From positions 62,001 through 126,000 of the forward strand of contig NZ_JAUNUG010000001.1 of assembly GCF_030538285.1 (NCBI RefSeq): a stretch of 64,000 nucleotides of DNA. The letters run 5' to 3'. Source of the stretch: Corynebacterium sp. GTDB taxonomy: Bacteria > Actinomycetota > Actinomycetes > Mycobacteriales > Mycobacteriaceae. The notes under the pieces were generated by a model, which was not told where the DNA came from, ran no database searches, and saw nothing but the letters and a program-made list of their open reading frames with translations. How positions within the stretch are numbered: position 1 is the stretch's first letter; every line of letters starts with the position of its first letter. The translations under genes and the position numbers were made by a program. Below are positions 29 through 64,000 of the stretch, one piece after another.

Positions 29-301
29 ATGCAGACTGGAACCGTGGAAATTCACTATTTCGCGGCCGCCCGGGCCGCCGCCGGATGCGCCTCTGAAACC
101 GTGGACGTTATCCCCGCCACCCTCGGGGAGCTTCTCGACGCCCGCGCTACCGCCCACACCGGCCACACCGACGCCGGCATGAGCTTCGCTGAGGTGCTGG
201 AACGCTGCACCTTCCTCGTCGACGGACGCCATTCGACCCGCGACACCCCGTTGGAGGGAGCATCGCGGGTCGATGTGCTGCCGCCTTTCGCCGGGGGCTA
301 A
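29..301 (+). CDS. MoaD/ThiS-family small sulfur carrier protein
   Basis: Small ubiquitin-like protein of 90 residues that ends in Gly-Gly (PPFAGG), the C-terminus that is adenylated and thiocarboxylated in MoaD and ThiS carriers. The start VEIHYFAAARAAAG and the end VDVLPPFAGG are typical of MoaD, the small subunit of molybdopterin synthase. GTG at 8 and ATG at 14 are also in frame. ATG at 29 was chosen because the conserved beta-strand begins a few residues later. No MoaE or other cofactor gene is visible beside it, but the window begins just upstream. It converges on the membrane-protein gene that follows, and the two coding ends overlap by 4 bp. ThiS is a less likely alternative because of the MoaD-like start. 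Confidence 0.75.
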   Translation: MQTGTVEIHYFAAARAAAGCASETVDVIPATLGELLDARATAHTGHTDAGMSFAEVLERCTFLVDGRHSTRDTPLEGASRVDVLPPFAGG

Positions 302-663
302 ACCTTCGGGGTGACCAGCCCGATCACCCAGGTGGCCACGCCCATGACGAGGGCGCCGATGAAAGCGGAAGTGAAGCCGTCGACCTGCAGACCCAGGCCC
401 AGCGCCGCGGAAAGCCAACCGGTCAACAGGAACAGTAGGGCGTTGATCACTAGGGCGAACAGCCCCAGGGTGAGGACGGTCAGCGGCGTGCCTATCGCAT
501 GCGCGATGGGGCTGATCACGGCGTTGACCGCCATAAACAGCAACGCCACCCAGATAAACGCCCAGGGATCATCCGCTGGTTCGACAGAGATTCCGGGCAC
601 GATGCGGGTCACAAAGAACAGCGCAATCGCCGTGGTGATGATGCTCAGCAGTAGTCGGAACAT
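298..663 (-). CDS. Small four-helix membrane protein, phage-holin-4-2/YvlD-like family
   Basis: 121-residue hydrophobic protein with four predicted membrane segments, roughly residues 3-20, 31-50, 57-80 and 90-115. The pattern (FVTRIVPGI, then a long helix with NAVISPIAH, then NALLFLLTGWL) fits the family often annotated as phage holin family protein or YvlD. Despite the name, members are chromosomal and not lytic proteins. The ATG at 663 overlaps the stop of the upstream aminotransferase gene (TGATG), which suggests translational coupling. GTG at 666 is an alternative start. The cellular role is unknown. Confidence 0.7.
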   Translation of the reverse strand: MFRLLLSIITTAIALFFVTRIVPGISVEPADDPWAFIWVALLFMAVNAVISPIAHAIGTPLTVLTLGLFALVINALLFLLTGWLSAALGLGLQVDGFTSAFIGALVMGVATWVIGLVTPKV

Positions 664-1685
664 CACAGACCTGCCTTCTGCCAGGCCGCCAGGAGCTGGT
701 CGGCCTCGGCCTGCGTGGTCACGGTGATGCGCACGCCCTCGGGGAAGGCGCGGACCAGCACACCCTGCGCGGCGAGCCGCTCGGCGACGTCGACGGAGTC
801 CACGCCCGGCAGCCAGATGAAGTTCGCCTGACTACGGCGGGCGCCGAGGGCGTCGGCGACGCGGTCGCGCTGCTCAACGGTCTCCTCGGTGCGTTCCAGC
901 AGTTCATCGGCGCTATCCAGGCTGGCCAGGGCGCCAGCCTGGGCGACGGCATTGACGCCGAAGGGGATGCATACCTTGTCCAGCGCGCCGATGATCTCCG
1001 GGTTGCCGAACGCGTAGCCCACCCGCACGCCGGCCAGGCCATAAGCCTTGGAGAAGGTGCGCATCGCCACCACATTAGGGTGCTTTGCGACGGCCTCCGT
1101 ACCCACCACCGTGTCTTCCGCCCGGTTGTACTCGAAATACGCCTCATCCAGGCCCACGATGACATCCTCGGGGACCTGCGCCATGAATTCATCGAACTCC
1201 GCCTGCGTGATCACCGCACCCGAGGGGTTATTCGGGTTGCACAGGAAGATGAGCTTCGTCTTCTCGGTGATCTTCGCGACCATGGTGGGTAGGTCGTGGC
1301 GGCCGTCGTCGAGAAGCGGGACCGGCACCGGAGTCGCGCCGACCACCTGGGCAAAGATCGGGTACGCCTCGAAGCTGCGCCACGCGAAGACGATCTCATC
1401 GCCCGCACCGGCGGTGATCTGCACCAACTGTTGGCACAGCGCTGAGGAACCGCAACCCACCGCCACGTGTCCGACCGGCAGATCCAGATGCTCCGCCAGA
1501 GCCTGCTTCAGCTGGGTGGAGAACATGTCCGGGTAACGGTTGGCGTTCGCGGCGGCCTGCGCCATGGCCTCCGCCGCCGCCGGGAGCGGGGCTGTGGACA
1601 CCTCGTTGGAGGACAGTTTCAGCGCGTCCGGCTGGGCCTTCCCGGGAACATAAGCGGGCAGGGCGGCTAGGTCAGGACGAATCAT
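663..1685 (-). CDS. pat: HisC-like aminotransferase, probable aromatic/phenylalanine aminotransferase
   Basis: 340-residue fold-type I PLP enzyme of the histidinol-phosphate aminotransferase family. Visible landmarks are the substrate motif LKLSSNE near residue 23, NPNNPSG near 150-156 (PLP-contacting Asn), LDEAY near 179-183 (PLP-contacting Asp) and FSKAYGLAG near 211-219 with the Schiff-base lysine at about 213. It stands alone without other his genes, which matches the second HisC-like protein of corynebacteria (Pat/AroT type) that makes phenylalanine or tyrosine from the keto acids. The assignment within the family is inference. ATG at 1685 was chosen because MIRPDLAALPAYVPGK is the usual start; the longer open frame would run to 1748. 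Confidence 0.85.
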   Translation of the reverse strand: MIRPDLAALPAYVPGKAQPDALKLSSNEVSTAPLPAAAEAMAQAAANANRYPDMFSTQLKQALAEHLDLPVGHVAVGCGSSALCQQLVQITAGAGDEIVFAWRSFEAYPIFAQVVGATPVPVPLLDDGRHDLPTMVAKITEKTKLIFLCNPNNPSGAVITQAEFDEFMAQVPEDVIVGLDEAYFEYNRAEDTVVGTEAVAKHPNVVAMRTFSKAYGLAGVRVGYAFGNPEIIGALDKVCIPFGVNAVAQAGALASLDSADELLERTEETVEQRDRVADALGARRSQANFIWLPGVDSVDVAERLAAQGVLVRAFPEGVRITVTTQAEADQLLAAWQKAGL

Positions 1686-1765
1686 GCGGCTGATTGTAGG
1701 CGGTTTGGCTTGCAGGTGGCCGGGCGGGTAGGATTCCTGCAGTTGCACCGTTTGCGCGTGTGACT

Positions 1766-1854
1766 GGAGACGTGCCAGAGCGGCCGAATGGGGCTCCCTG
1801 CTAAGGAGTTGCCTGCTTTGCGGCGGGCCGGAGGTTCGAATCCTCTCGTCTCCG
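1766..1854 (+). tRNA. tRNA-Ser(GCT)
   Basis: Long-variable-arm tRNA of 89 nt. The acceptor arms GGAGACG (1766-1772) and CGTCTCC (1847-1853) pair. The anticodon loop CTGCTAA gives anticodon GCT, reading AGC/AGU. The T arm GGTTCGAATCC is standard. CCA is not encoded. tRNA-Arg follows after a single base. Confidence 0.95.
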
Positions 1855-1855
1855 C

Positions 1856-2032: not shown

Positions 2033-2815
2033 ATGACCATCAATCACGGCGATCCCGTCTGGATGGATCTGTCCACCGACAACATCGAGGCCGCAGCTAC
2101 CTTCTACCGTGAAGTCCTCGGTTGGGACTTTGAGCACCAGGGTGAGGAATACGGCGGCTATCACATGATCATGCGCGACGGTCAGCCCGTCGGCGGGGCG
2201 ATGAGCTCGCTCATGGGCCCGGACGGCCCCACCGAGGAACCGCAGTACCCCACCGCCTGGACCATCTACCTCAAGGTCGACGACCTCGACGCTGCGCTCG
2301 AGGCGGTCGCCGAACACGGCGGCACCGTCGTCGTCCCGGCGATGGGCGTTGGTGATCTGGGCCGCATGGCGGTCATCTTTGACCCCGCCGGGGCAGGGCT
2401 GGGACTGTGGGAGCCGGGGAGCTTCGCGGGTTTTGTCCGTGACAACGGTCCTGGCTTCCCTGCCTGGTTCGAGGTGATGGCCCGCGACTATGACGCTGCC
2501 GAGCCCTTTTACCGGGAGGTCTTCGGGTGGGGCATCGGTTATATCGGGGAGGACGGCCAGCCGGCGGAGCAGCCTAGCGGGGACATTCGCTATGGTTCCA
2601 CGCAGGCTGCCGGGCTCTGCGAGGCCGATCGTTTCCTAGCTCCCGGGGTGCCCAGCTTTTGGCGGGCTTATATTGCGGTCGAGGATGTGGACGCGAGCGT
2701 CGAGAAGCTCCGGGAGCTTGGCGGGACCGTGTTGGATGGGCCGATGGACACTCCTTTCGGACGGATCGCGACGGTCGCTGACCCGCAGGGCGGGAGCTTC
2801 CAGATCAGCTCCTGA
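2033..2815 (+). CDS. Two-domain VOC (glyoxalase/bleomycin-resistance-like) protein
   Basis: 260-residue protein made of two tandem vicinal-oxygen-chelate modules, about residues 8-125 and 135-258. Each has the FYREVLGW/FYREVFGW helix and a closing GRMAVIFDPAG or GRIATVADPQG strand. This architecture matches actinobacterial VOC proteins annotated as hydroxylases or glyoxalases, but the substrate cannot be read from sequence. ATG at 2033 follows a good ribosome site (GGAGAGGA about 7 nt upstream). It is probably monocistronic or weakly linked to mgtE 44 nt downstream. Confidence 0.85.
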   Translation: MTINHGDPVWMDLSTDNIEAAATFYREVLGWDFEHQGEEYGGYHMIMRDGQPVGGAMSSLMGPDGPTEEPQYPTAWTIYLKVDDLDAALEAVAEHGGTVVVPAMGVGDLGRMAVIFDPAGAGLGLWEPGSFAGFVRDNGPGFPAWFEVMARDYDAAEPFYREVFGWGIGYIGEDGQPAEQPSGDIRYGSTQAAGLCEADRFLAPGVPSFWRAYIAVEDVDASVEKLRELGGTVLDGPMDTPFGRIATVADPQGGSFQISS

Positions 2816-2859: not shown

Positions 2860-4218
2860 ATGTCTGAGGTCAACGTGATCGAGAAGCTCGAGAGGATCAT
2901 CCGCGCGGACGGGGGAGTACCGCCGGAACGCGCGGCGGAGCTTTCTGAGCTTCTCGACGAACCCCCGATCAAGGATGTCGTCGCACTTGTTGAGCGTTCG
3001 ACGGCGGTGCGCGCGGCGGTGGTCCTGCGGTTGCTGTCCCGTCAGCGGGCGATCGCCGTGTTTGACGCGCTCGACGCCGCGCATCAGGCCGACCTCATCG
3101 ACGCCCTGGGCGATGAGTCCGTCACGGACTTCTTCGGTGAGCTCGATCCGGATGACCGGGTCTCGCTTCTCGACGAGCTGCCCGCCGAGATCGCCGAAAG
3201 GTTCATGCGCACCCTCGATGACACGGAGCGTGACATCACTGGTGTGGTGCTCGGTTACCCCAGGGGGTCGGTGGGACGTCGGATGTCGCCGGAGGTGCCG
3301 CACATTTACGACGACATGACGGCCGAGGAGATCCTGCAGAAGCTGCGCCGGGTGGCTCACGATGTGGAGACGATCTACACGCTGCCGATCATTCGCCGTG
3401 ACCGGCGGCTGGTCGGGGTGGCGTCGCTGCGTGACCTGTTCACCGCGGAGGGATCGACCGGGGTGGCTGATCTAATGGCGAAGCCGGTGTTTGCTCACGC
3501 GCAGGACGAGGCGGAGGCGACCGCCCGCTGGTTCGTGCCCCTGGACATGCTGGCGATGCCGGTGGTGGATGAGTCGGAACGCCTGGTCGGCGTACTCACC
3601 TTCGATGACGCTGCCGACATCATCGAGGAGGCGGATTCGGAGGACACCGCCCGTTCCGGCGCGTCCGAACCGTTGCAGCAGCCCTACTTATCGACGCCGC
3701 TGGTGAAGATCGTGAGATCCCGCATCGTGTGGCTGCTGGTGCTGGCGATCTCCGCGTTGCTCACCGTGCAGGTACTGGACACCTTCGAGGACACTCTCGC
3801 CGCCGCGGTGGTGCTCAGCCTGTTCATCCCGCTGCTCACGGGCACGGGCGGCAACACGGGCAATCAGGCGGCGACCACGGTCACCCGTGCTCTGGCGCTG
3901 GGCGACGTCCGACCGCGCGACGTCGCTGCCGTCGCGTGGCGGGAGATCCGGGTGGGCATGCTGCTCGGCGCCGTGCTGGGCACGCTGGGTTTCGTGCTGG
4001 GCACGCTGGTCTACGGGCTCCCAATCGGCATGGTCATCGGTTCAACCCTGCTGCTGGTGTGTACTTTTTCGGCGACGGTGGGTGGGGTGATGCCGATCAT
4101 CGCGAAGAAGGTCGGCGCGGACCCGGCGGTCTTTTCCAACCCGTTCATCTCGACGCTGTCGGATGCGACCGGTTTGATCATCTATTTCCTCATTGCCAAG
4201 TCTGTCCTCGGCCTGTGA
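2860..4218 (+). CDS. mgtE: MgtE-family magnesium transporter
   Basis: 452-residue Mg2+ channel/transporter. Order: a cytosolic helical N domain (about residues 1-130, many DELPAEIAERF-like helices), a tandem CBS pair (about 135-260, MSPEVPHIYDDMTAEE and LMAKPVFAHAQDEAEATARWF), a connecting helix, and a membrane domain of five helices from about residue 290. The family signature GTGGNTGNQAATTVTRAL lies near 338-355. In MgtE the N and CBS domains sense cytosolic Mg2+ and gate the pore. The start is preceded by AGGGAGG at a suitable distance. No Mg2+ riboswitch fits in the 44-nt upstream gap. Confidence 0.93.
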   Translation: MSEVNVIEKLERIIRADGGVPPERAAELSELLDEPPIKDVVALVERSTAVRAAVVLRLLSRQRAIAVFDALDAAHQADLIDALGDESVTDFFGELDPDDRVSLLDELPAEIAERFMRTLDDTERDITGVVLGYPRGSVGRRMSPEVPHIYDDMTAEEILQKLRRVAHDVETIYTLPIIRRDRRLVGVASLRDLFTAEGSTGVADLMAKPVFAHAQDEAEATARWFVPLDMLAMPVVDESERLVGVLTFDDAADIIEEADSEDTARSGASEPLQQPYLSTPLVKIVRSRIVWLLVLAISALLTVQVLDTFEDTLAAAVVLSLFIPLLTGTGGNTGNQAATTVTRALALGDVRPRDVAAVAWREIRVGMLLGAVLGTLGFVLGTLVYGLPIGMVIGSTLLLVCTFSATVGGVMPIIAKKVGADPAVFSNPFISTLSDATGLIIYFLIAKSVLGL

Positions 4219-7365: not shown

Positions 7366-7863
7366 ATGGAACACGAGGAGTACGGCCGTAGCTTCGCCGT
7401 GACGGTCACCCGGGCCGATGGGCACTGGGTGGTGCGTTCATTCGACGATGATTTTTCTGCGCTGGCGACCTCTGTGCAGGCGGTGCGGCAGTTGCGGAGT
7501 GAGGGGCCAGCGTTCGCGTTGTTGTGCGTCGATGATGACTATTTCGTCATCGTCCGCCCCACGCCGAATGGGGTGCAGGCACTCGTGTCGGATGCGACGA
7601 TGGCGGTTGATGATGATTTCGCCGCGGAGATCCTCAGTGAGCTGGATGCGGAGATCCCGGACCTGGATCCGGATGAGCTCGATGATGTGGACGGCTGGCC
7701 GGACGGCGATTTCGACCTCCTCGCCGACGTGGGCCTGAGCGAGGAGATCCTCGGGGTCATCGCCGACGATGATGATCTGTGGCCCTCCGAGCAGCTGGTC
7801 CGTATCGCGGAGGAGCTTGGTTTCGCTGATGAGCTTATCGACGTCGCGGGGGTCGACGATTGA
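7366..7863 (+). CDS. Acidic tRNA adenosine deaminase-associated protein
   Basis: 165-residue, very Asp/Glu-rich protein (runs such as LDPDELDDVDGWPDGDFD and VIADDDDLW) that matches the actinobacterial family regularly encoded directly before tadA. Its biochemical role is not known to me; the name only reflects gene linkage. The start at ATG 7366 gives MEHEEYGRSFAVTVTR, the usual family start; GTG codons farther upstream are ignored. The stop codon lies 23 nt before the chosen tadA start and overlaps the longest tadA frame. Confidence 0.8.
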   Translation: MEHEEYGRSFAVTVTRADGHWVVRSFDDDFSALATSVQAVRQLRSEGPAFALLCVDDDYFVIVRPTPNGVQALVSDATMAVDDDFAAEILSELDAEIPDLDPDELDDVDGWPDGDFDLLADVGLSEEILGVIADDDDLWPSEQLVRIAEELGFADELIDVAGVDD

Positions 7864-7886: not shown

Positions 7887-8336
7887 GTGCGAGCTGAGCG
7901 GCTCATGCGCCGCGCCCTGGAGGTCGCGGCCATGACCCCGCCCGGCGACGTGCCCGTGGGAGCCGTTATTTTCGGCCCGGATGGGCGCGAGCTGGCGTTT
8001 GCCACCAATCGCCGCGAAGCCGACGGGGATCCCACGGCGCATGCGGAGGTGCTGGCGATTCGGCGGGGCGTCGAGAAGCATGGCGATGCGTGGCGCCTGA
8101 GCGGGTGCACGCTGGTGGTCACCCTGGAACCGTGCACAATGTGCGCGGGTGCCGTGCTCGGAGCACGGGTGGATGAGGTGATTTTCGGGGCGTGGGAGCC
8201 GAAGACCGGCGCCTGCGGCTCGCTTATCGACGTCCTCCGCGCCCCCGGCCAGCTCCACCGCCCGGATGTGCGCGGCGGGGTCCTGGAGCGAGAGTGTGCG
8301 GCCTTGCTGGCGGGGTTCTTCAAATCTTTACGTTAA
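7887..8336 (+). CDS. tadA: tRNA(adenine34) deaminase TadA
   Basis: 149-residue zinc-dependent deaminase that converts A34 to inosine in tRNA-Arg(ACG), two copies of which lie in this window. The cytidine-deaminase-fold motifs are intact: TAHAEV (zinc His52 and catalytic Glu54) and LEPCTMCAGAV (zinc Cys83 and Cys86). The GTG at 7887 was chosen because GAGGAGG sits 6 nt upstream; the frame also has a TTG at 7860 overlapping the previous stop. Forms a two-gene unit with the acidic partner protein. Confidence 0.92.
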   Translation: MRAERLMRRALEVAAMTPPGDVPVGAVIFGPDGRELAFATNRREADGDPTAHAEVLAIRRGVEKHGDAWRLSGCTLVVTLEPCTMCAGAVLGARVDEVIFGAWEPKTGACGSLIDVLRAPGQLHRPDVRGGVLERECAALLAGFFKSLR

Positions 8337-8870: not shown

Positions 8871-11360
8871 GTGGCTAAATTTCTGTTCAAGCTGGGACGC
8901 TGGTCCTTCCACCGCAAGTGGATCGTCATCCTCGTATGGCTGGCGGCGCTCGCCGGTGTGGCCGGCGCAGCCGTGGCCTTCCAGAAGCCGTTCTCCAACG
9001 AATTCTCTATCGGCGGCACGCCTTCTATTGAGGCGACCAAGGTGCTGGTGGAGAAGTTCCCGGAGGGCGGCAACCCCGTCAATGCGGCGAGCGTCAACGT
9101 GGTGTTCGCCGCGCCAGAGGGTGAGCAGTTGGCGGATCCGGGGAATTCCGCGGCGATTGACACGGTGGTCACCCATATTGCGGACAATCTTCCTGATCTG
9201 ACCGACACGGAGAGATTCGGCAACCCCGTGGAGGTCTCGCCTGCCCTGCAGCAGGGGGTCATCGACATGATGACGGAGCAGGGGTTGCCGGAGGAGTCTG
9301 CCCGCGAGGACGCCGAGAACCTGGCGATGGTCTCCGAAGACGGCCGCATCGGCTACACCACCTTCACCATTGATGTGCCCTCATCGATGGACGTGACGGA
9401 TGAGCACCGGGCCATCGTCAATGAAGCCATGGATCTGGGTCGTGAGCAGGGCATTCAGGTCGAGGCCGGCGGTGCCGGTTTCGGTGATCCCATCACGGTG
9501 AAAACCACCAGTGAGATCGTCGGTCTGGCGGTCGCGTTTGTGGTACTCATCGTCACCTTCGGTTCGCTCATCGCGGCCGGACTGCCCGTGCTCACCGCCG
9601 TTATCGGCGTGGGTATCGGCGCGCTGACGATCATCATCGCCACCGCGTTCATCGAGCTGAACAACATCACCCCGGTGCTGGCCGTCATGATCGGCCTGGC
9701 CGTGGGCATCGACTACGCCCTGTTCATCCTCTCCCGCTATCGGGCGGAGCGGTCCCGCATGCCTGCCGATGAGGCCGCCGGCATGGCCGTGGGCACCGCC
9801 GGATCCGCGGTGGTCTTCGCCGGTGCCACTGTCATCATCGCGCTGGCGGCGCTGACCATCGTCAACATTGAGTTCCTCACCGCCATGGGTCTGTCGGCGG
9901 CGTTCACGGTGCTCGTCGCCGTGCTCGTCGCCCTCACCTTCATCCCGGCGTTGCTCGGCGTGCTCGGCGACCGCACCTTCAAGGCACCGGTGCCCGGCGT
10001 AGCCGGCAACCCGTGGAAGAAGCGCGAGAAGAAGGAGGGAAGGCGGCGTCGAAAAGCAAAGCCGACGATGGGTAACCGCTGGATCCGCTTCGTGCGCCGC
10101 GTCCCCGGCCTGGTCATGGCCGTCGTCGTGCTCACCCTCGGGGCCCTGTCCTACCCGGTGCTCAACATGGAGCTCTCGCTGCCCTCAGACTCGACCTCCA
10201 ACCTGGACACCACCCAGCGCAAATCCGCCGACCTCATGGCCGAGGGCTTCGGCGAGGGCGTCAACGCGCCCTTCCTGGTCATCGTCGACGCTGACGAGAT
10301 CAACCCCGACGCCCCTGCCCTGGCACCCCTGGTGCAGGCGCAGGAATCGATGGCCGGGGAGGGGGAAACGGTGGATCGTCGAGAAGCAGCTGTGACCAGC
10401 TCCTTCCTCTACACCGTCGCGCAGCTGAAAAACGTCGGCGGCGTCAAGCACGCTCAGCTGGTGGGCATGAACCCGGACACCGACGCCGCGCAGATCATGG
10501 TCACCCCGTTCACCGGGCCGGATGACCAGTACACCACCCAGGTGTCGCATGCTCTGCGTGAGCAGGGCGAGCAGATCGCCGACGCCACGGGTGCTGACAT
10601 CGGGCTCACCGGCCTCACGGCCGTCCAGATGGACATCACCGAGAGGCTGTCGGAGGCCATGCCGATCTACCTGGGGATTGTCGTTGGTCTGGCGATATTC
10701 CTGCTGCTCGGCGTGTTCCGTTCCGTCATGGTGCCGCTCGTCGCCGGATTGGGCTTCCTGCTCTCGGTCGGCGCGGCCTTCGGCATGACCGTGCTCGTGT
10801 GGCAGGAAGGCCTGTGGGATCTGGTGAACACCCCGGCCCCGCTGATTTCCTTCATGCCGATCTTCCTCATCGGTGTCACCTTCGGCCTGGCCATGGACTA
10901 CCAGGTCTTCCTGGTCACCCGCATGCGTGAGCATTACATCAACCTGCGCGTGAAAGCCCACGAGGACCCCGACCCGGATGTCCCGCGGGCGATCTCCAAA
11001 CTCGATGCCGTCGAGGAATCCACCATCATCGGCTTCACCCGCGGAGCCCGCGTGGTCACCGCCGCCGCGCTCATCATGATCGCGGTGTTCGTGGCCTTCA
11101 TCGACCAGCCCCTGCCGTTCATCCAGATCTTCGGCTTCGCCCTCGGTGTGGGCGTGTTCTTCGACGCGTTCTTCGTCCGCATGGCGCTCGTGCCCGCCAC
11201 GATGTTCCTCATGGGCAGCGCCACCTGGTGGATCCCCCGCTGGCTCAACCGCCTCATCCCCCGCATGGACATCGAGGGCACTGCTCTGGAGAAGGAGTGG
11301 GAGGAACGGCACGCCGCGCAACAACAGCACCGCAAGGAAATGGAGAAGGTCACCTCATGA
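8871..11360 (+). CDS. MmpL-type RND transporter
   Basis: 829-residue inner-membrane protein with two MMPL repeats. Each has one N-terminal helix, a large extracytoplasmic domain and a five-helix bundle. Proton-relay-like segments are visible in TM4 (VGIDYALFILSRYRAE, near residue 285) and in the second half (LAMDYQVFLVTRMREHY, near 675). Corynebacterial MmpL/CmpL proteins export trehalose monomycolate or other envelope lipids; others of this size are annotated as drug exporters. The substrate cannot be decided here. The GTG at 8871 gives MAKFLFKLGRWSFHRKW. The last four bases (ATGA) overlap the start of tgt, so the two are co-transcribed although functionally unrelated. Confidence 0.85.
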   Translation: MAKFLFKLGRWSFHRKWIVILVWLAALAGVAGAAVAFQKPFSNEFSIGGTPSIEATKVLVEKFPEGGNPVNAASVNVVFAAPEGEQLADPGNSAAIDTVVTHIADNLPDLTDTERFGNPVEVSPALQQGVIDMMTEQGLPEESAREDAENLAMVSEDGRIGYTTFTIDVPSSMDVTDEHRAIVNEAMDLGREQGIQVEAGGAGFGDPITVKTTSEIVGLAVAFVVLIVTFGSLIAAGLPVLTAVIGVGIGALTIIIATAFIELNNITPVLAVMIGLAVGIDYALFILSRYRAERSRMPADEAAGMAVGTAGSAVVFAGATVIIALAALTIVNIEFLTAMGLSAAFTVLVAVLVALTFIPALLGVLGDRTFKAPVPGVAGNPWKKREKKEGRRRRKAKPTMGNRWIRFVRRVPGLVMAVVVLTLGALSYPVLNMELSLPSDSTSNLDTTQRKSADLMAEGFGEGVNAPFLVIVDADEINPDAPALAPLVQAQESMAGEGETVDRREAAVTSSFLYTVAQLKNVGGVKHAQLVGMNPDTDAAQIMVTPFTGPDDQYTTQVSHALREQGEQIADATGADIGLTGLTAVQMDITERLSEAMPIYLGIVVGLAIFLLLGVFRSVMVPLVAGLGFLLSVGAAFGMTVLVWQEGLWDLVNTPAPLISFMPIFLIGVTFGLAMDYQVFLVTRMREHYINLRVKAHEDPDPDVPRAISKLDAVEESTIIGFTRGARVVTAAALIMIAVFVAFIDQPLPFIQIFGFALGVGVFFDAFFVRMALVPATMFLMGSATWWIPRWLNRLIPRMDIEGTALEKEWEERHAAQQQHRKEMEKVTS

Positions 11361-26119: not shown

Positions 26120-26263
26120 TGATCACTGCGGCCGCGGTGACCGTGGTCGCTGTGTTCTCGTGAAACAGTACACAACATCGCGCTGAAAATACAAATCGCT
26201 GGTCAGGGGCGTCGATAAGCGGGGATTTGGCCTCTGTACCCCGCGATGGGTTAGAGTTGGCGG

Positions 26264-43007: not shown

Positions 43008-45328
<2,321 letters not shown>

Positions 45329-45342
45329 CTGATCAACCTCCT

Positions 45343-47728: not shown

Positions 47729-47749
47729 TTCCTCAGGACGCTCTTAAAA

Positions 47750-47783
47750 GGCGCCCGTTCCAACCCTGGTTGGAATGGGCGCC
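47750..47783 (+). terminator. Terminator after surface protein 2
   Basis: GGCGCCCGTTCCAACC / GGTTGGAATGGGCGCC, a 16-bp stem with one mismatch and a 2-nt centre, 21 nt after the stop codon. Preceded by TTAAAA; no strong T tract. Confidence 0.7.
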
Positions 47784-47912
47784 TGTGCATCGTCGAAACC
47801 GCGAAGATTACCCGGTCATCAAGACTGCGAGCTCAGGGCCGGAAAATGGCGACAAGTTGAGTGCGGTGACCATGAAAAAGCCTGGCAACGACCCGGTTAA
47901 TTCAGGTCAAAC

Positions 47913-48266: not shown

Positions 48267-48329
48267 AGTTCTAATGGTCCGAGTACTGCTCTCGTCCAGT
48301 GCTACTATCCACGCTATCCAAGGGGAACA

Positions 48330-52559: not shown

Positions 52560-52575
52560 AAGGTAGCAGTTCCTG

Positions 52576-52608
52576 AACCCCAACCCCGGTCATCCAGGGT
52601 TGGGGTTT
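52576..52608. terminator. Bidirectional terminator between surface protein 3 and sigC
   Basis: AACCCCAACCC / GGGTTGGGGTT with a 10-nt loop between convergent genes. It touches the sigC stop codon at 52607. Confidence 0.8.
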
Positions 52609-53173
52609 AGTTGTCGGGGCGGGCGGCGTCGATAAGATCTTTGCGGGCGCGGGCGACGCGGGAACGGATTGTGCCGACGCGGACGCCGGCGATCTTCGCG
52701 GCCTCTTCGTAGGTGTAGCCGAGGACCTGGGTGAGGATGAGGGCTTCGCGGCGTTCGGTGGGGAGGGCGTCGATAAGCGTGCGCGCGTCGATCCACTCGG
52801 ACCAGGAGGAGGCGTTGGCGCCGTCAACGGGGGTCGTGGCGGCGGCGTCTTCGTATTCGGTGACGGATTTGCGGGGGCGGGCCATGTCATGGCGGATGTT
52901 GTCGACCCATACGCGGCGCGCGAGGGAGAGTAGCCACGTGCGTGCGGAGGAGCGGGCGGCGAAGCGGGGGAGTGCGCTCATGACACGGAGGTAGGTCTCC
53001 TGGGTGAGATCATCGGCGATGTCGCGGCCGCCGAGGTGAGCGAGGAGGCGCCACACGTCGTCCTGGGTGGCGCGGATGAACTCCGTCAGCGCTTCGCGGT
53101 CGCCACGACCGGCGCGGAGGGCCAGGTCGGTGACGCGGGCGTCGTCTGATGCGGAGTGCTTGCTCACGCTCAT
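52607..53173 (-). CDS. sigC: ECF-type RNA polymerase sigma factor SigC
   Basis: 188-residue sigma-70 family member with region 2 (LAHLGGRDIADDLTQETYLRVM, about 45-66; RTWLLSLARRVWVDNIR, about 80-96) and region 4 (LPTERREALILTQVLGYTYEEAAKIAGVRVGTIRSRVARARKDL, about 135-180), and no regions 1 or 3. The position next to katA matches SigC of C. glutamicum, which controls respiratory-chain and oxidative-stress genes. No anti-sigma gene is adjacent. Confidence 0.9.
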   Translation of the reverse strand: MSVSKHSASDDARVTDLALRAGRGDREALTEFIRATQDDVWRLLAHLGGRDIADDLTQETYLRVMSALPRFAARSSARTWLLSLARRVWVDNIRHDMARPRKSVTEYEDAAATTPVDGANASSWSEWIDARTLIDALPTERREALILTQVLGYTYEEAAKIAGVRVGTIRSRVARARKDLIDAARPDN

Positions 53174-54860: not shown

Positions 54861-54885
54861 CTACTGCTTCTCGACGCCCGCGCTC

Positions 54886-56129: not shown

Positions 56130-57653
56130 TCAGCGGCCTCCCTGGAGGTCGGTCATGTCGGGAACACCGATCGGATCCTCGCCCAAGACGGCGGCCGCGT
56201 AGCCGTCGACGTCGAGGAGGCCTTCGGTGGCGGTGAGGGTGGCGTCGATAAGCGGGCCCGCGAAGATGAACATCGCCAGCGATCCTGCCATGAGCACCGC
56301 GGAGGGGGCGATGAGCCGGGCGGAGATGCGCAGCTCCTTGGGGTAGCGTTGCATCGGCTTACCCCAGAACACCTCGCGCCAGACGCGCAGCATGGACAGC
56401 AGCGCACCGATGGAGGCGACCACGATGACGGCGATGACCAGCCATGCCCACCAGTCGACAGCGCGGGCAATCTCGAAGACCAGCAGGATCTTGCCCCACA
56501 TGCCCGAGAACGGCGGGAAACCGACGATGGAGAACGCGCCCGCGGCGAACAGCGCTGCCACGATGGGATCGCGCCGGGCCAGACCCGAGAGCTTGGACAA
56601 CAGCCCGGTGGCGTAGGTCTCCTCGATCGCGCCCGAGGTGAGCAGCAGTGCGCCGACGGTGACCATGTGGTGCAGCGTGTACAGCAGGCCGGCGGCCAAC
56701 GCGCGTTGCGGATCATCTGAGGTGAACGCCAGCATGACCAGGATGAACGGCATGCCGTTGATCATCTGGTAACCCAGCACGCGGCGGATCGAGTTCTCCG
56801 CCAGACCCGCGAAAGCGCCGATGAGCATCGAGACCACCATGATGGCGATGATGAGCCAGTTCCAGCGGTCCTCTAGATCGAAGATGTTCACGTAGATGCG
56901 GTAGAGCATGTACACCGCGACCTTCGTGTGCAGGCCGGAGAACAGGCCCATCACGGCTGCGGAGGTTTCCGGGTAGGTGCGCGGCAACCAGGTGTGGACC
57001 GGGAAGACACCGGCCTTGGCACCCACGGCGATGACCACCAGGCCCATGGCGACCACCGCCGGGCCGTTACCCGCGGCAACCCCCTGGAGCGCGGCGATGT
57101 TCACCGTGCCGGTGACGCCGTAGAGCACGCCGACACCGATGAGCAGCAGCGTCGAGGCCGCCAGGTTGACCAGTACAAACGCACGCCCACCGGCCAGGCG
57201 TGCCCAGGTGCCGGACATGGCGATCAGACCGTAGGAGGGCAGCAGCATGACCTCGATGAACACGAAGAAGTTGAACAGATCGGCGGTCAGCAGCGCGCCG
57301 TTGACACCCGTGATGAGGATGAGCGTCAACGAGGCGTAGTAGCGGTTGACCGTCTCACCGGAGATGGTGGCGAACCAGTTGGCGGTGGCCGCGACGATCA
57401 TCGTGGTGATGATCATGATTGCGGCGAAAGTATCCGCCGCAAACGGGATGGCCACACCACCGACATACAGGCCGACGTTGTGGGCGATGGGACCGTTGTC
57501 CGCAGTGTGCAGGAACAACCAGATACCGGCGGCGACGCCGAGCAGCGGGATACCGATGTGGAGCACATCGCGGGCCCAGCGCCACGGCAGCAGCACCGCG
57601 ATAGCCGCGGTGAACAGCGGGATGGCGGCGAAAAGGGGGAGAGTCCAGTCCAT
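56130..57653 (-). CDS. mrpD: Mrp-type antiporter subunit D (complex I NuoN/M-like)
   Basis: 507-residue proton-translocating membrane protein with about 14 helices. FNFFVFIEVMLLPSYGLIAM carries the essential membrane Glu, and later KAGVFPVHTWLPRTYPETSAAVMGLFSGLHTKVAVYMLYR carries the paired Lys/His residues. Overlaps the mrpC stop by one base. Confidence 0.93.
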   Translation of the reverse strand: MDWTLPLFAAIPLFTAAIAVLLPWRWARDVLHIGIPLLGVAAGIWLFLHTADNGPIAHNVGLYVGGVAIPFAADTFAAIMIITTMIVAATANWFATISGETVNRYYASLTLILITGVNGALLTADLFNFFVFIEVMLLPSYGLIAMSGTWARLAGGRAFVLVNLAASTLLLIGVGVLYGVTGTVNIAALQGVAAGNGPAVVAMGLVVIAVGAKAGVFPVHTWLPRTYPETSAAVMGLFSGLHTKVAVYMLYRIYVNIFDLEDRWNWLIIAIMVVSMLIGAFAGLAENSIRRVLGYQMINGMPFILVMLAFTSDDPQRALAAGLLYTLHHMVTVGALLLTSGAIEETYATGLLSKLSGLARRDPIVAALFAAGAFSIVGFPPFSGMWGKILLVFEIARAVDWWAWLVIAVIVVASIGALLSMLRVWREVFWGKPMQRYPKELRISARLIAPSAVLMAGSLAMFIFAGPLIDATLTATEGLLDVDGYAAAVLGEDPIGVPDMTDLQGGR

Positions 57654-58030: not shown

Positions 58031-61023
58031 CGCTCGGCCTCCTTCTCGGTATCGGTCTGGGCATCGGTCTCAGTATCGGTCTCAGCGACGAGTACCGAGC
58101 GCGGCGCATCGGCTGGGTTGATCGGCTCGGGGAAGGACTCGGCGTGCCCCTCGCCTTTCTCGATGGTCGGGGTGGCGGGCAGGGGCCCGTCTTCGTCGAT
58201 ACGCGCGTAGTTGAGGTCGTTGACGTCCACGCCCGGGCGCAGGTAGCCGCCGAGAGCGTTGATCGCCATGGTGAGCATGCCGAGCACCGCCAGGTAGATA
58301 CCCAGGTCGAAGATGAGCGAGGTGGTCATGTGCTCGCCGAGGATGTAGCCGTGGATGGCGTAGAGGAAGGAGCCCTCCAACAGGCCGATGAAGCCCGCGC
58401 CGACGGCGGTCATGATGCCGATGCCGGTGAGCCACACCGGGGTGGACTCGCGGAAGACGATGCCGTCCTGGCCCTTCGACAGATACGCCAGGCCGATGGC
58501 GGCACCCATGATCAGGGCTGCGACGAAGCCGCCGCCCGGATCTTGGTGGCCGCGCATGAACACGAGCACGCTGAGGATCGCCAGCACCGGGATGACCAGC
58601 AGGATGACCTTGCGCATCGGGATCGAGTTGAGCTGCGACTGGCCGAACGGTGCCGGGCGGGTGCCCTCCTTGAAGGGGTGGCGCGGCATGGAGTGGGCGA
58701 CCGCGGCGATGACGATCGCCGCCATGCCCAGCACGGAGAGCTCGCCGAGGGTATCCAGGGCGCGGAACTCGACAAGGATGACCGCCACGATGTTCTGGCC
58801 GCCGGTGATCTCCGGGGCCTGGTCGAGGTACCACATGGCCAGCTCGGAACGCTCGCGGCGACCCAGCAGCGCGAAGACGCCACCGAAGGTGACCACGCCG
58901 GCCGCCAGGGCGATGATGAAGGAGCCGATCTGGCGTCGGGAGGAGGTGACCTTGGGGAACAGGTTCGGCTGGTAGCGCAGGACCATCATGATGACGATGA
59001 CGGTAAGAGCCTCGACCGTCAGCTGCGTGAGTGCCACGTCAGGTGCGCCAAGCAGCATCATCTGCAGGCTCATGCCCACGCCGACGGTGCCGATGAGCAC
59101 CGCGGCCGACAGGCGCGAGTTGGTGATCGCCAGGCCCACGACCGACACGCCGATGATGATGAGCGGGATGAGGTCCCACGGGTTGTCCAGGCCTTCGGTG
59201 CGCGGGGCCGGGGTGATGCCGTCGACGCCCGGCGACAGGTAGGTTGCTCCGCCGAGGACGATGACGCACAGCACCAGCGGCAGCAGGTGGCGCGAGGGGT
59301 TGTGGGTGTTGGCCATGGCGCCGACGGCACGGCCGAAGCGCCCGGAGATGCGCACGCCGTGCTCGAGCAGTTCGTTGCCGGAGGAGGGGAACATCTTGCG
59401 CCCCTCCAGTACCGGCCAGATCTGCTTGCGGAAGACCACGCCGATGATGCCGACGATGAGCACACCCACCGAGATCAGCAGCGGGGTGTTGATGCCGTGC
59501 CACAGCGCCAGATGCGACTCGTGCTCGGCGCCGATGGAGGCGGTGATGGCGTCGAGGGGGGCGTCGAAAAGCCCCGCTAAGAAGGCGAAGGGCAAAGACA
59601 TCAGGCCCGGCAGGGCGGCCGGCAGCCACAGGGAGACCGGGGCCTCGTGGACCTTGGACATGTCGCGCGGGCCGTCGATGAACGCGCCGAAGACGATCTT
59701 CGCGGAGTACGTGAAGGTGAGCACCGCGCCGATCGCGGCGACGAACAGCAGCAGGCCGGAGTAGGGGGCGTCCTGGAAGGCGGTGAGCATGCCCTCCTTG
59801 GACAAAAAGCCCAGCAGCGGCGGGACCGCGGCCATCGACGCCGCGCCGATGACCACCGAGGCGAACGTGAACGGCATCTTGTCCCACAGGCGGCCCAGGC
59901 GGCGGATGTCGCGGGAACCGGCCTCATGGTCGATGACACCGATGAGCATGAACAGGGAGGACTTGAACAGCGCGTGCGCGGCGGTGTGCACCACGGCCGC
60001 GGCGAGGGCGAAGGGGGTGCCCACACCGATCGTCGCGACGATCCAGCCCAGGTGGGAGACCGTCGAGTAGGCGGTGAGCTGCTTGAGGTCAGTCTTCTGC
60101 ACGGCAAAGGCCGCGGACATGATCGCGGTGGCCATACCGGCGATGATGAGCAGCCCGTTCCACACGGCCACGTCGTGGAACACGGTGGAGAAACGCAGCA
60201 GCAGGTAGATACCGGCCTTGACCACGGCGGCGGCGTGCAGGAAGGCGGAGACTGGCGTGGCGGCGGCCATGGCCTCCGGCAGCCAGAAGTGGAAGGGCAG
60301 CTGTGCGGACTTGGTGAAAGCGGAGACTGCGACCAGCACCGCCAGGCCAGCGGTGACACCGGGGCTCTCCGCCCAGAAATCGGCCGCCAGGATGTCCGAG
60401 AGGCGGGTGGTGCCCGCGGTGGTCGCAGCGACGGCCACGGCCACCAGCAGCGTCAGGCCACCGATGAAGGTGAGGATGAGGGTGCGGATGGACCCGGCCT
60501 CGCCGGAGGAGCCCGAGCGCGCAATCAGCATGAACGACGCCAGCGACACCAGCTCCCAGGCGAGGAAGAGGAGCACCACGTCGTCGGCAAGCACGAGCAG
60601 GAGGATCGACAACGTAAACGCCGTCATGATCGTGTAGAAACTGGTGTTGCCCTGGCGTTTCGGCAGATACGCCGCAGAATAGATGAACACCACCGCGCCG
60701 ATGATCAGCGCCAGCATGGCAAAGAACACACCCAGCGCATCACCCCGCAACGCCAGCGAGACATCCATTCCCGGGGCCACGACATCCGTGACCCACACGT
60801 AGTCGAAGGTGAGGGGTCGGCCGTCGATAACCGCGGGAAGTTCCCTGCCGAGCGCCACCGCCCCCGCCACGAAGAGGGCGGCCAGCGGCCACCCTGCCTT
60901 TCTGTCGAGCACACGCACCGCAGGTGGGGCCGCAACCACCGCCACAGCCGCGAGCGTTATGACAAGGATCAGTGTCACTGGGGAACCACGCTCAATATGT
61001 TCGGAAACAGTTAGGAATCTCAT
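58027..61023 (-). CDS. mrpA: Mrp-type antiporter subunit A with fused MrpB domain
   Basis: 998-residue protein, first gene of the operon. Residues about 1-500 are a NuoL-like antiporter core (LAWELVSLASFMLIARSG; FTKSAQLPFHFWLPEAMAAATPVSAFLHAAAVVKAG). Residues about 600-800 are the MrpA-specific C-terminal part. Residues about 815-960 form the MrpB domain (RKVILLVIPVLAILSVLVFMRGH...GGGFVAAL), which explains the absence of a separate mrpB gene. The complex exchanges cytosolic Na+ for H+ and supports alkali and salt tolerance. Divergent from the gene at 61097 with 73 bp between. Confidence 0.94.
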   Translation of the reverse strand: MRFLTVSEHIERGSPVTLILVITLAAVAVVAAPPAVRVLDRKAGWPLAALFVAGAVALGRELPAVIDGRPLTFDYVWVTDVVAPGMDVSLALRGDALGVFFAMLALIIGAVVFIYSAAYLPKRQGNTSFYTIMTAFTLSILLLVLADDVVLLFLAWELVSLASFMLIARSGSSGEAGSIRTLILTFIGGLTLLVAVAVAATTAGTTRLSDILAADFWAESPGVTAGLAVLVAVSAFTKSAQLPFHFWLPEAMAAATPVSAFLHAAAVVKAGIYLLLRFSTVFHDVAVWNGLLIIAGMATAIMSAAFAVQKTDLKQLTAYSTVSHLGWIVATIGVGTPFALAAAVVHTAAHALFKSSLFMLIGVIDHEAGSRDIRRLGRLWDKMPFTFASVVIGAASMAAVPPLLGFLSKEGMLTAFQDAPYSGLLLFVAAIGAVLTFTYSAKIVFGAFIDGPRDMSKVHEAPVSLWLPAALPGLMSLPFAFLAGLFDAPLDAITASIGAEHESHLALWHGINTPLLISVGVLIVGIIGVVFRKQIWPVLEGRKMFPSSGNELLEHGVRISGRFGRAVGAMANTHNPSRHLLPLVLCVIVLGGATYLSPGVDGITPAPRTEGLDNPWDLIPLIIIGVSVVGLAITNSRLSAAVLIGTVGVGMSLQMMLLGAPDVALTQLTVEALTVIVIMMVLRYQPNLFPKVTSSRRQIGSFIIALAAGVVTFGGVFALLGRRERSELAMWYLDQAPEITGGQNIVAVILVEFRALDTLGELSVLGMAAIVIAAVAHSMPRHPFKEGTRPAPFGQSQLNSIPMRKVILLVIPVLAILSVLVFMRGHQDPGGGFVAALIMGAAIGLAYLSKGQDGIVFRESTPVWLTGIGIMTAVGAGFIGLLEGSFLYAIHGYILGEHMTTSLIFDLGIYLAVLGMLTMAINALGGYLRPGVDVNDLNYARIDEDGPLPATPTIEKGEGHAESFPEPINPADAPRSVLVAETDTETDAQTDTEKEAER

Positions 61024-61096: not shown

Positions 61097-62497
61097 ATGA
61101 GCGCCTCCATTCGTCATTGGATCACGGCACTGCTGCTGGTCGTCCCCCTGGTTGTGGGGGCGGCGGTCGCCGCTGCCACCCATCTCGATCCCGCCGCCAC
61201 GTGGAGCAGCGGGGACGAACCGGCGGCCGCCCCCGCGCCCATCGCTTCCCAAGAGCTTATCGACGCCCGCCGCGCCGCCGGTGAAGCCGGTTCCCAGGCG
61301 GGTTTCCTCACCACGGGCACCGGAGAGCTGGCCGAGGGTGTCGCCGAGATGCGGACCGGCGCCGAGGGCCTGCCGGAGGAGTTCAACGAGGCAGTTCTCG
61401 GCGCGCAGCAGCTGCACCAGGGGCTGGTGGAACTGCAGGCAGGCGTGGGCCAGCTGGGGACCGGCGCCGGCGAGGTCGCCGACGGGGTGGGCGGCGCCGT
61501 CGACCAGGTCATCGGTCTCGGCGCCCTGCGTGGCCAGCTGTTAGCGGCCATCGACGACACCACCAGTGGCATGGAAGGCGTGAGCGACCCGGATGTCGTC
61601 GAGGCGCGTGAGCAGCTCCTCGGCCTGCGCGGCCAGGTCGAGCTCATCGAGCTGGACGGAGAGGTGGCTCAGCAATTGCAGGCGCTCAAAGACGGTTCGC
61701 GTGAGATCGCCAACCAGCTCGGCGTCCCCGGCTACGCCTTCCACGACGGCATCTACTCCGCCACCCAGGGGGCGCAGGAGCTCTCCTACGGTCTCACCGA
61801 GGCGCAGGGCGGCATCGGCGAGGCCATCTCCGGTGTCGAGGCCCTCGACGAGGGAGCCCAGCGTATCGACGACATGGCCTCCCGCACCCAGGACCGCATC
61901 ACCGCAGTCCAGCGCGCCCTGCCCGCCGTGCAGGCCGCCGACGCGGAGTCCGAGCAGGTCAGCCCGGCATTATCCCCGCTATTCGCACTGCTCATCGCAG
62001 CACTTGTCATGGTCGGTGGCGCCTTCGCCGGTGCTCCTCGACGCCCCGTTATCGCCCTCGCCGCCATCCTCGGGTTGACGGTGGCCGGCGTTGTGCTGCT
62101 GTGGCTGGTCGGAGCGGGACTCGGGGCCGGTGCGCTGGGACTCGGGGCGGTGGTGCTGGCCTCCGGCGCTGCAGCCGCCGCGGTGAGTACCCATGTGCTG
62201 ATGCGGCTATTCGGTGGCATCGGCGGTTCCATCGCGGCCGGGGTGCTCGGCCTGGTGCAGCTCGGCATCGTCGGCTGGGTGTGGAAAACCCTGACCACCA
62301 CCGAAGTCTCCGCCGCCTGGCAGGTCGCTGCGAACCTCTTCCCCCTGGGCTGGGGCACCGCGGGGCTGACCGCCGCCGGCAACGACGGCACCCTCGGCGT
62401 GCTCTGGCTCTCACTCGGAGTGCTCGGAGCGATGGCCGTGCTGGGCGTAGGTGCGGTGTTGGTAGAGCGGCGTGAGGCTGCACGGCGATCTAGCTGA
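61097..62497 (+). CDS. YhgE/Pip-like membrane protein
   Basis: 466-residue protein. One N-terminal membrane helix (about 8-27) is followed by a long extracytoplasmic, Gly/Gln-rich coiled region (about 45-290) with repeated TGTGELAEGVAEMRTGAEGL-like heptads. Five to six C-terminal membrane helices follow (about 297-460). This outline and the heptads agree with the YhgE/Pip family, which is related to phage-infection proteins and ABC-2-like permeases; a cognate partner is not adjacent. Function unknown, envelope-related by family. Confidence 0.7.
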   Translation: MSASIRHWITALLLVVPLVVGAAVAAATHLDPAATWSSGDEPAAAPAPIASQELIDARRAAGEAGSQAGFLTTGTGELAEGVAEMRTGAEGLPEEFNEAVLGAQQLHQGLVELQAGVGQLGTGAGEVADGVGGAVDQVIGLGALRGQLLAAIDDTTSGMEGVSDPDVVEAREQLLGLRGQVELIELDGEVAQQLQALKDGSREIANQLGVPGYAFHDGIYSATQGAQELSYGLTEAQGGIGEAISGVEALDEGAQRIDDMASRTQDRITAVQRALPAVQAADAESEQVSPALSPLFALLIAALVMVGGAFAGAPRRPVIALAAILGLTVAGVVLLWLVGAGLGAGALGLGAVVLASGAAAAAVSTHVLMRLFGGIGGSIAAGVLGLVQLGIVGWVWKTLTTTEVSAAWQVAANLFPLGWGTAGLTAAGNDGTLGVLWLSLGVLGAMAVLGVGAVLVERREAARRSS

Positions 62498-62622: not shown

Positions 62623-62696
62623 GTGTCCTGCGGATTACTCCGTGGTACCTGGAATACCTTAGCCCACATCCGGGCGAAGCGGCAAAACGCCAGGTC

Positions 62697-63602
62697 TTAG
62701 GAAGTTTCGGTGATGCGCAGCAGGGTGGCGGAGGGGCGGCAGAACAGGCGGACGGGCACGAACTTGGAGGTGCCCAGCCCGTTGGAGACGTGCATTTTCA
62801 TCCGGCCGAAATTGTGCAGCCCCTGGACGCGCGCGCGGTCAATGCCACAGTTGGTCACGATCGCCCTCGACCCCGGCAGGCACAGCTGCCCACCGTGGGT
62901 GTGCCCCGACAGGGACAGCTGGTAGCCGTCACGCTCGAACTCGGCCAAAACCCGCGGCTCCGGGGAGTGCAGTAACGCGAGGGAGAGGTCGGCGTCGGGG
63001 TTGGGGGCGCCGTCGATAAGCGAATAGTCGTCGAGATCATGATGCGGATCATCGACACCGGCGGCGGCGATCCGCACGGAACCGACCTGGAACTCCAGGC
63101 GCTGGTGGGTGGCGTCCTGCCAGCCGCGTTCAATGAACGCGGCGCGCATATCGCGCCACGGCAGATCGATGTAGGAGGGGATGCGGCGCGTGCCGAAGAG
63201 GTAGCCGAAGGGGTTGGGCAGCTGCGGCGCCCAGTAATCGTTCGTGCCGAACACGAACATGCCCGGGCGGTTGAGCAGCGGGCCGAGGGCGCGGAGGACA
63301 CCGGGGACGGCGCGCTCGTCGGAAAGGTTGTCGCCGGTGTTGACCACCAGATCCGGGTTGAGGGAGTCCAGCGCGGACACCCATGCCTCCTTCGTCGACT
63401 GCCCCGGGATCATGTGTAGGTCGGAGACGTGGAGCAGGCGGAACTCCTCACGCCCGCGCAGCGTGCCCGGCGGCAGGAGGGGGACGGTGATGTCCTTGAG
63501 CTCGAAGCGGCGCAGTTCGGAATTGCCCCAGGCGAGCAGTCCGGCGCCAGCGAGGGCGGCCGCGCCGAGGGCACCGACGAGGGGGTAGATGAGCTTGTTC
63601 AC
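62697..63602 (-). CDS. Membrane-anchored metallophosphoesterase
   Basis: 301-residue protein with an N-terminal membrane helix (about 5-27) and a calcineurin-like phosphoesterase domain: LLHVSDLHMIPGQ, VVNTGDNLSDERAVPG, a GTNDYW variant of the usual GNHD box, and SLSGHTHGGQLCLPG near 230. These are the metal-binding boxes of YkuE/YaeI-like enzymes. The GTG at 63602 fits better to the upstream AGGTAGGG than the GTG at 63611. The substrate is unknown, lipid-type in some relatives. Divergent from the YqeY-like gene. Confidence 0.85.
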   Translation of the reverse strand: MNKLIYPLVGALGAAALAGAGLLAWGNSELRRFELKDITVPLLPPGTLRGREEFRLLHVSDLHMIPGQSTKEAWVSALDSLNPDLVVNTGDNLSDERAVPGVLRALGPLLNRPGMFVFGTNDYWAPQLPNPFGYLFGTRRIPSYIDLPWRDMRAAFIERGWQDATHQRLEFQVGSVRIAAAGVDDPHHDLDDYSLIDGAPNPDADLSLALLHSPEPRVLAEFERDGYQLSLSGHTHGGQLCLPGSRAIVTNCGIDRARVQGLHNFGRMKMHVSNGLGTSKFVPVRLFCRPSATLLRITETS

Positions 63603-63637
63603 CCGCACCACCCTACCTGCGGAGTACCGTGGTCCCC

Positions 63638-64000
63638 ATGAGTGAGCTGAAGGACAAGATCCGCGCCGACCTGAAGACCGCGATGCTGGCCAAGGACAAG
63701 GGCCGCACCGGCACCATCCGCATGCTGCTGGCCGCTATCCAGGGAGAGGAGACCACCGGCACCAAGCATGAGGCGAGCGACGAGGACATCCTCAAGGTCA
63801 TCGCCCGGGAGATCAAGAAGCGCCGCGAGTCGGCGCAGATCTACACCGATAACAACCGCCCCGAGCTCGCCGAGACGGAGCTCGCGGAGGTCGCGGTGCT
63901 GGAGGAGTACCAGCCGGCGCAGTTGGATGACGCGGGCGTCGAGAAGCTTGTCGACGACGCGGTCGCCACCGTAGCCGCCGAGCAGGGCATCGCACCGGCA
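63638..64000 (+). CDS. YqeY/GatB-domain protein (3' end beyond window)
   Basis: 121 codons visible, open to the last base. It starts MSELKDKIRADLKTAMLAKD, then TIRMLLAAIQGEE, IAREIKKRRESAQIYTDNNR and ETELAEVAVLEEYQPAQLDD, all typical of the about 150-residue YqeY family, which shares the tRNA-binding tail domain of GatB. The role is uncertain. The 3' end contains a pair of overlapping, oppositely oriented copies of the iterated CGTCGANAAGC word (63947-63966). Confidence 0.88.
   Translation, partial: MSELKDKIRADLKTAMLAKDKGRTGTIRMLLAAIQGEETTGTKHEASDEDILKVIAREIKKRRESAQIYTDNNRPELAETELAEVAVLEEYQPAQLDDAGVEKLVDDAVATVAAEQGIAPA
63947..63966. repeat. Head-to-head pair of the iterated 11-mer CGTCGANAAGC
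   Basis: CGTCGAGAAGCTTGTCGACG holds two copies of the word in opposite orientation sharing the bases GC in the middle, forming a near-perfect dyad. It represents the 36 exact copies seen in the window. In the CGTCGANAAGC orientation these start at 1307, 2698, 8069, 10047, 10377, 15141, 17954, 18239, 24197, 24589, 26210, 27690, 34567, 35336, 36953, 52768, 56243, 59562, 63011 and 63947. In the reverse orientation they start at 130, 2949, 3165, 7833, 8222, 14246, 15230, 16914, 20104, 24562, 28980, 40838, 45151, 54866, 61255 and 63956. Confidence 0.8.

Follow-up and report, generated by a model that had tools for sequence, protein, structure and literature searches.

The question raised by the DNA considered here, a 64-kb stretch of a Corynebacterium sp. 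genome (contig NZ_JAUNUG010000001.1, positions 62,001 to 126,000; hereafter, the window), is why a single 11-base word with ten fixed bases, CGTCGANAAGC, recurs in it 36 times. The word is not equal to its own reverse complement, i.e. it is non-palindromic, and 20 of its copies lie in the forward (+) and 16 in the reverse (-) orientation. It probably represents a DNA uptake sequence, serving as a self-recognition tag for natural transformation by way of a Tad pilus, ComEA and ComEC. An earlier reading of the window from its letters alone (the sequence-only reading) had given the same copy number and orientations; both were reproduced in the recount, and all positions named in that reading were recovered.

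Abundance, orientation and frame of the word

Dinucleotide shuffling of the window (n=100) yielded a mean of 0.15 copies of CGTCGANAAGC and a maximum of one. Across the whole genome (2.95 Mb, 94 contigs), 1,533 copies were counted (761 forward and 772 reverse), compared with 19 (14 forward and 5 reverse) for a control in which the same letters were placed in reversed order. The sequence-only reading had allowed for a word confined to the window or present in the genome at background level, neither of which was found. An unsupervised word scan of 120 kb of the genome ranked CGTCGANAAGC first, with 60 sites (spaced by over 300 bases) where an order-3 Markov model predicts 0.82.

Further statistics were obtained from a sample of 400,960 bases, consisting of 20 stretches and the window (21 stretches altogether) and containing 220 exact copies. 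Variants with one mismatch were present 0-6 times each for word positions 1-5 and 10, and 3-29 times each for positions 6, 8, 9 and 11. At the variable position N, the window contained G 15, T 14, A 4 and C 3 times, as reported previously; over the larger sample T (122) was the commonest base, followed by G (64), A (20) and C (14). Alignment of the flanks of 215 copies revealed a three-base rhythm (of G on the 5' side), G being favoured before the word and A or G after it, and nothing more, indicating that the word is not part of a longer repeat.

KOPS, Chi and HIP1 are likewise highly iterated short words; the first two show polarity along replichores and HIP1 is a palindrome. The Corynebacterium word is neither skewed nor palindromic. 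Counted by stretch, the two orientations (114 forward and 106 reverse) were locally mixed (chi2 12.97, 21 degrees of freedom, p=0.91), which excludes a KOPS-like replichore polarity. The sequence-only reading had set KOPS/FtsK and Chi words aside on the grounds of equal orientations; its conclusion stands, although the argument was insufficient by itself, since KOPS-type words, too, are equally frequent in both orientations when a complete chromosome is counted.

Based on a simple purpose-made gene caller (324 genes, coding fraction 0.858), 182 of the 220 copies were genic, 37 were intergenic and one was located at a gene edge. The genic copies were distributed over all six reading frames (109, 37, 16, 8, 6 and 6), the commonest of which encodes LIDA-type peptides on the opposite strand; a peptide motif is thereby excluded and, together with the intergenic copies, this bears out the previous view that no codon effect is involved. 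The spacing of the word was near random (199 neighbouring gaps, mean 1,737 bases, coefficient of variation 0.88). Among the 15 neighbouring pairs less than 200 bases apart, 13 were inverted (two-sided p=0.007, for a test picked after the counts were seen), with only one overlapping dyad. By eye, four intergenic copies (L019:10023, L003:10283, L014:13288 and L001:8956) were seen to lie immediately 3' of G+C-rich hairpin-like sequence, as if placed at terminators.

The exact matches to CGTCGANAAGC in the window, spelled out for each variant of N, are as follows.

130..140, - strand, word CGTCGAGAAGC
1307..1317, + strand, word CGTCGAGAAGC
2698..2708, + strand, word CGTCGAGAAGC
2949..2959, - strand, word CGTCGAGAAGC
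3165..3175, - strand, word CGTCGAGAAGC
7833..7843, - strand, word CGTCGATAAGC
8069..8079, + strand, word CGTCGAGAAGC
8222..8232, - strand, word CGTCGATAAGC
10047..10057, + strand, word CGTCGAAAAGC
10377..10387, + strand, word CGTCGAGAAGC
14246..14256, - strand, word CGTCGACAAGC
15141..15151, + strand, word CGTCGAGAAGC
15230..15240, - strand, word CGTCGATAAGC
16914..16924, - strand, word CGTCGATAAGC
17954..17964, + strand, word CGTCGAAAAGC
18239..18249, + strand, word CGTCGAGAAGC
20104..20114, - strand, word CGTCGATAAGC
24197..24207, + strand, word CGTCGAGAAGC
24562..24572, - strand, word CGTCGAGAAGC, inverted pair with 24589
24589..24599, + strand, word CGTCGAAAAGC, inverted pair with 24562
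26210..26220, + strand, word CGTCGATAAGC, intergenic, 5' of the signal recognition particle (SRP) RNA gene (26262)
27690..27700, + strand, word CGTCGAGAAGC
28980..28990, - strand, word CGTCGATAAGC
34567..34577, + strand, word CGTCGATAAGC
35336..35346, + strand, word CGTCGATAAGC
36953..36963, + strand, word CGTCGAGAAGC
40838..40848, - strand, word CGTCGATAAGC
45151..45161, - strand, word CGTCGACAAGC
52768..52778, + strand, word CGTCGATAAGC
54866..54876, - strand, word CGTCGAGAAGC, intergenic
56243..56253, + strand, word CGTCGATAAGC
59562..59572, + strand, word CGTCGAAAAGC
61255..61265, - strand, word CGTCGATAAGC
63011..63021, + strand, word CGTCGATAAGC
63937..63947, + strand, word CGTCGAGAAGC, overlapping inverted pair with 63946
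63946..63956, - strand, word CGTCGACAAGC, overlapping inverted pair with 63937

The longest word-free stretch of the window (45162-52767, 7.6 kb) contains an open reading frame (ORF) of 1,409 amino acids (48330-52559) with a signal-like start, possibly encoding a fast-evolving or acquired surface protein.

Spread in the genus, dialects and in-place switching

In a sample of 221 Corynebacterium genomes, evenly drawn from a larger group, CGTCGANAAGC was present in at least 100 copies in 153 genomes and in fewer than 100 in the remaining 68. In each of the 153 word-rich genomes, forward and reverse counts differed by at most a factor of 1.27. A separate count covered 61 genomes: the 37 belonging to the genus contained 7 to 1,533 copies each, and the 24 from outside it were at background level, with a sum of 899 word copies against 827 control copies.

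Unsupervised searches revealed related words in other, word-poor members of the genus (genomes and loci being referred to by G and L numbers, respectively). The word-poor genome G006 yielded CATCGNCAAGC (36 sites vs 1.0 expected) and G243 yielded ATGACGNCGCG (equivalent to CGCGNCGTCAT; 31 vs 0.6), with weaker words in G195 (GGNGGCATCGG; 10 vs 0.3) and G013 (CGTCGNCAAT; 23 vs 2.4). The fuller form of the word is CATCGNNAAGC in G006, G129 and G167, and CGTCGNNAAGC in the neighbouring G004. Among the 221 genomes, CATCGNNAAGC was represented by 625-1,337 copies in 11 and by at most 223 in the remainder, and CGCGNCGTCAT by 661 copies in G243 and at most 59 in each of the other 220. Position-wise consensus sequences showed GGC(G/A)TC to be common to most of these dialects, the leading GG being weak or absent in G013. 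In G097, G224 and G233, CATCGNNAAGC amounted to 211-223 copies with CGTCGANAAGC near background, and these genomes may perhaps use a further related dialect.

A weak excess around GGCGTCG was observed in three further word-poor genomes, G015, G033 and G010. The excess of CCTCGNCGACG in G063 (19 vs 1.3 expected) is doubtful because this genome is 75% GC. In two loci of G033 (L034 and L035), numerous 10-mers recurred around GGAGCTGCTGG and GCGGATGGAG, which a tandem-repeat gene would probably explain. No convincing word was found in the samples of G014, G028, G030, G003, G017, G024, G176, G196 and G204, which comprised 20-140 kb each, a size at which a sparse word in a word-poor genome might escape the search.

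The relationship between two dialects was examined by comparing G006 and G004 over 68 kb of aligned sequence (80.1% identity). At the positions of 49 CATCGNNAAGC sites of G006, G004 carried exactly CGTCGNNAAGC in 28 cases, retained CATCG in six and differed otherwise in 15; conversely, 28 of 45 G004 sites were switched in G006 and six were retained. At these word sites the second base was conserved in 27% of cases, compared with 80-98% for the eight other fixed bases. As a control outside the word, occurrences of CATCG with at least two second-half misfits, and with the other four bases retained, were assessed. A change from A to G was observed at 29 of 40 positions inside the word against 35 of 231 in this control (p=7e-13), and at six of 16 in words with one second-half misfit; in the converse direction, 29 of 37 positions inside the word were changed against 36 of 106 in the control (p=3e-6).

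According to the purpose-made gene calls, 20 of the 28 switched sites are silent, six replace Ile by Val and two are intergenic; among sites at which the change alters the protein, six of 13 were switched. The closer relatives G006 and G129, which share a dialect, retained 40 of 41 and 51 of 53 sites. Permuted control words, present in small numbers, were retained in one of 17 cases (G006/G004) and in five of nine (G006/G129).

In a tree of TadA, G004 adjoins G006, G129 and G177 (support 100/100), and the group otherwise comprises G195 with its own GGCATCGG word, the word-poor G014 and genomes that use CATCG. As G004 is nested within a CATCG group, albeit in a tree of one gene, the lineage of G004 probably replaced A by G. 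A single reader that altered its preference, followed by genome-wide replacement of its sites, would be the natural explanation of such a switch.

Candidate uptake machinery and readers

In the genome from which the window derives, comEA-, comEC- and holA-like ORFs are grouped together; comEC was identified by a Pfam match, while the other two are presumed to be comEA and holA from their sequence features. A Tad cluster is located on the same contig at approximately 139-145 kb, beyond the window, in the order ATPase, TadB/C, Flp-like pilin, TadE and Rv3654c-like pilin, followed by a helicase on the opposite strand; from sequence features, we take TadB/C, the pilins, TadE and the helicase to be what these names imply.

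Every genome of the genus searched for ComEC contained it (37 of 37 in one search and 28 of 28 in another, 57 different genomes in all); the Tad ATPase was detected in 55 of 57 genomes and in 24 of 24 others (79 of 81, both misses being fragmented assemblies), with word-poor genomes included in each case. Presence or absence of com and tad genes as the cause of the patchy distribution of the word was therefore rejected, these genes, though compatible with uptake, being present with and without it. In G001, a genome with 256 words, the ComEC match (G001:C4:524862-525658) falls into two overlapping pieces in apparently different frames, apparently reflecting a broken gene or a sequencing error.

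TadE proteins were assigned by eye to two types. Of the 44 word-bearing genomes examined, 42 have type A, with G008 the most diverged; type B was seen in 12 word-poor genomes, all of one TadA clade. The TadE proteins of G013 and G243, each of which has its own dialect, fit neither type cleanly, and those of G063 and G204 are ambiguous. The split between types follows phylogeny, which alone could produce it.

In a first alignment of TadE, one column contained S in 10 of 12 genomes with A at word position 2 (H or Q in the others), and R (five), T (three), S (one) or E (one) in 10 genomes with G at that position; G004, nested among relatives with S, has R. A corresponding scan of the Rv3654c-like pilin returned no column better than that of TadE. 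Of 20 further position-2-G genomes, all eight close relatives of G004 contained R, which is probably one event, and the other 12 contained S in G114, G229, G146 and G181, and otherwise K (two), T (two), R (two), Q (one) and V (one).

Weighing of explanations and comparison with known systems

As far as sequence can show, the Corynebacterium word resembles an uptake sequence in most features, terminator pairing and rarity in mobile DNA being those for which the observations are mixed. In the process envisaged, word-bearing DNA would be preferred by a surface protein able to read sequence, the simplest candidate being a minor Tad pilin, and ComEA and ComEC would import this DNA as single strands. 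Word-bearing fragments would then enter and recombine more frequently, so that biased transfer (molecular drive) would both multiply and restore copies, irrespective of strand and of the reading frame of a gene, wherever the protein tolerates the word. If the specificity of the reader shifted in a lineage, sites would drift in place to the new spelling, giving rise to dialects around a GGC(G/A)TC core. DNA uptake stood first among the roles proposed by the sequence-only reading and is favoured by the reading frames, the intergenic copies, the absence of polarity, the dialects and the in-place switching, over the nucleoid organisation, recombination and modification roles listed with it. With rather less assurance, we lean towards the wider proposal of a genus-wide system of self-DNA recognition, with at least five dialects, a GGC(G/A)TC core, a Tad-pilus reader, in-place switching that includes protein-changing sites, and an independent origin in Actinomycetota.

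Mobile DNA provides a suggestive comparison, short of a survey, for rarity of the word in such elements. The prophage of G215 contains no word in 21.0 kb against 6.6 expected (P=0.0014; host density, 0.31 words per kb). CGTCGANAAGC was absent from all ten viral loci counted (L295-L304, out of 80), of which only L295 has a known host and was used; L295 is identical to the DNA of G215 itself over 4.0 kb.

Several observations weigh against an uptake sequence. Mobile DNA is represented by a single prophage and a single plasmid, pTP10, in 50 kb of which four words were present: a tetracycline-transporter gene carries one, and an mshC gene of chromosomal type the other three. The com and tad genes, being present in word-poor genomes too, do not discriminate. 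G014, G176 and G196 possess a type A TadE, yet gave no convincing word in the samples searched, and a one-residue receptor code in TadE was rejected as a general rule by the 20 further genomes. Close inverted pairs are scarce (13 among 199 gaps), unlike the terminator dyads of Haemophilus. Lastly, no report of natural transformation in Corynebacterium was found among the titles and abstracts listed.

The rival that survives best, though we consider it unlikely, is a chromosome protein acting inside the cell (a nucleoid-associated, recombination or repair factor) that binds at the word and evolves in specificity together with its sites, since dialects and in-place switching could in principle arise from any sequence reader. 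The lack of local polarity argues against a directional word of the KOPS or Chi type, and copies lie within genes, in all frames, at approximately the coding fraction (182 of 220 vs 0.858). A regulator or organiser would, moreover, require a force that places the new spelling at many dispersed genic sites, including protein-changing ones, and the word-free prophage fits uptake better. Far less probable is an abundant modification (methylase or restriction) site: non-palindromic recognition words do occur among Type I, IIG and III enzymes, but ten fixed bases exceed their usual length, and the excess, the dialects and the in-place switching would be left without a reason. Codon or amino-acid usage or base composition, to which the dominant LIDA-type frame and the G rhythm of the 5' flank might point, is refuted by the use of all six frames and intergenic DNA and by the excess over both the reversed word and the Markov expectation. 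Very improbable, too, is that the copies descend from a dispersed repeat or mobile element: the high copy number would fit, but the flanks show no conservation beyond the rhythm and the adjoining bases, and the dialects change in place, base by base.

To our knowledge, uptake words have been described in two proteobacterial families only, Neisseriaceae and Pasteurellaceae, and their origin has long been disputed between selection against foreign DNA and drive from a biased receptor. An uptake sequence in Corynebacterium would constitute a third independent case, outside both families; no report of an uptake word in this genus was found among the titles and abstracts listed, from a library that covers a minority of subscription papers. 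The presence of several dialects in one genus, with the main spelling in 153 of 221 species and close relatives spelled differently, would render this dispute testable by comparison; many corynebacteria would furthermore be predicted to be naturally transformable, and the word would indicate which DNA to use.

For the DNA uptake sequence (DUS) of Neisseriaceae, 943 to 5,918 copies per genome are quoted, with eight dialects that share a CTG core and some family members lacking the word (PMC3630211). The Corynebacterium word resembles this system, in which the minor pilin ComP is the reader, in being short, non-palindromic and numerous, with core-sharing dialects and some word-less relatives, and differs from it in the unrelated word, the core (GGC(G/A)TC vs CTG), the actinobacterial hosts and the presumed use of a Tad rather than a type IV pilus. 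Haemophilus influenzae contains ~1,300 copies of the uptake signal sequence (USS) AAGTGCGGT, pairs of which often form terminators (PMC5217627). The USS of Pasteurellaceae is similarly short and highly iterated but is a different word, and close inverted pairs are few in the Corynebacterium genome considered here. Transformation of another actinobacterium, Micrococcus luteus, depends on Flp/Tad pili. Its tad genes, comEA and comEC represent the same class of machinery as in Corynebacterium, and M. luteus has no comG cluster; unlike the situation described here, no uptake word is mentioned in the portion of that publication considered (PMC6370729).

Two further observations concern mobile DNA. 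The mshC gene of pTP10, a resistance plasmid of C. striatum (L279:11684-12898), matches sequences of G131, G078, G183, G192 and G227 at 98-99%, with an additional diverged match (75-78%) in G078, G192 and G227, and this block seems to move between species. A search for phage portal genes returned matches in six of 47 genomes. The portal gene of the G215 prophage (G215:C1:742355-743353; L280, L295) has its nearest relatives in the phage collection (~77-81%) among phages of Oscillospirales, Streptococcus and others, and this family is of unusually broad host range.

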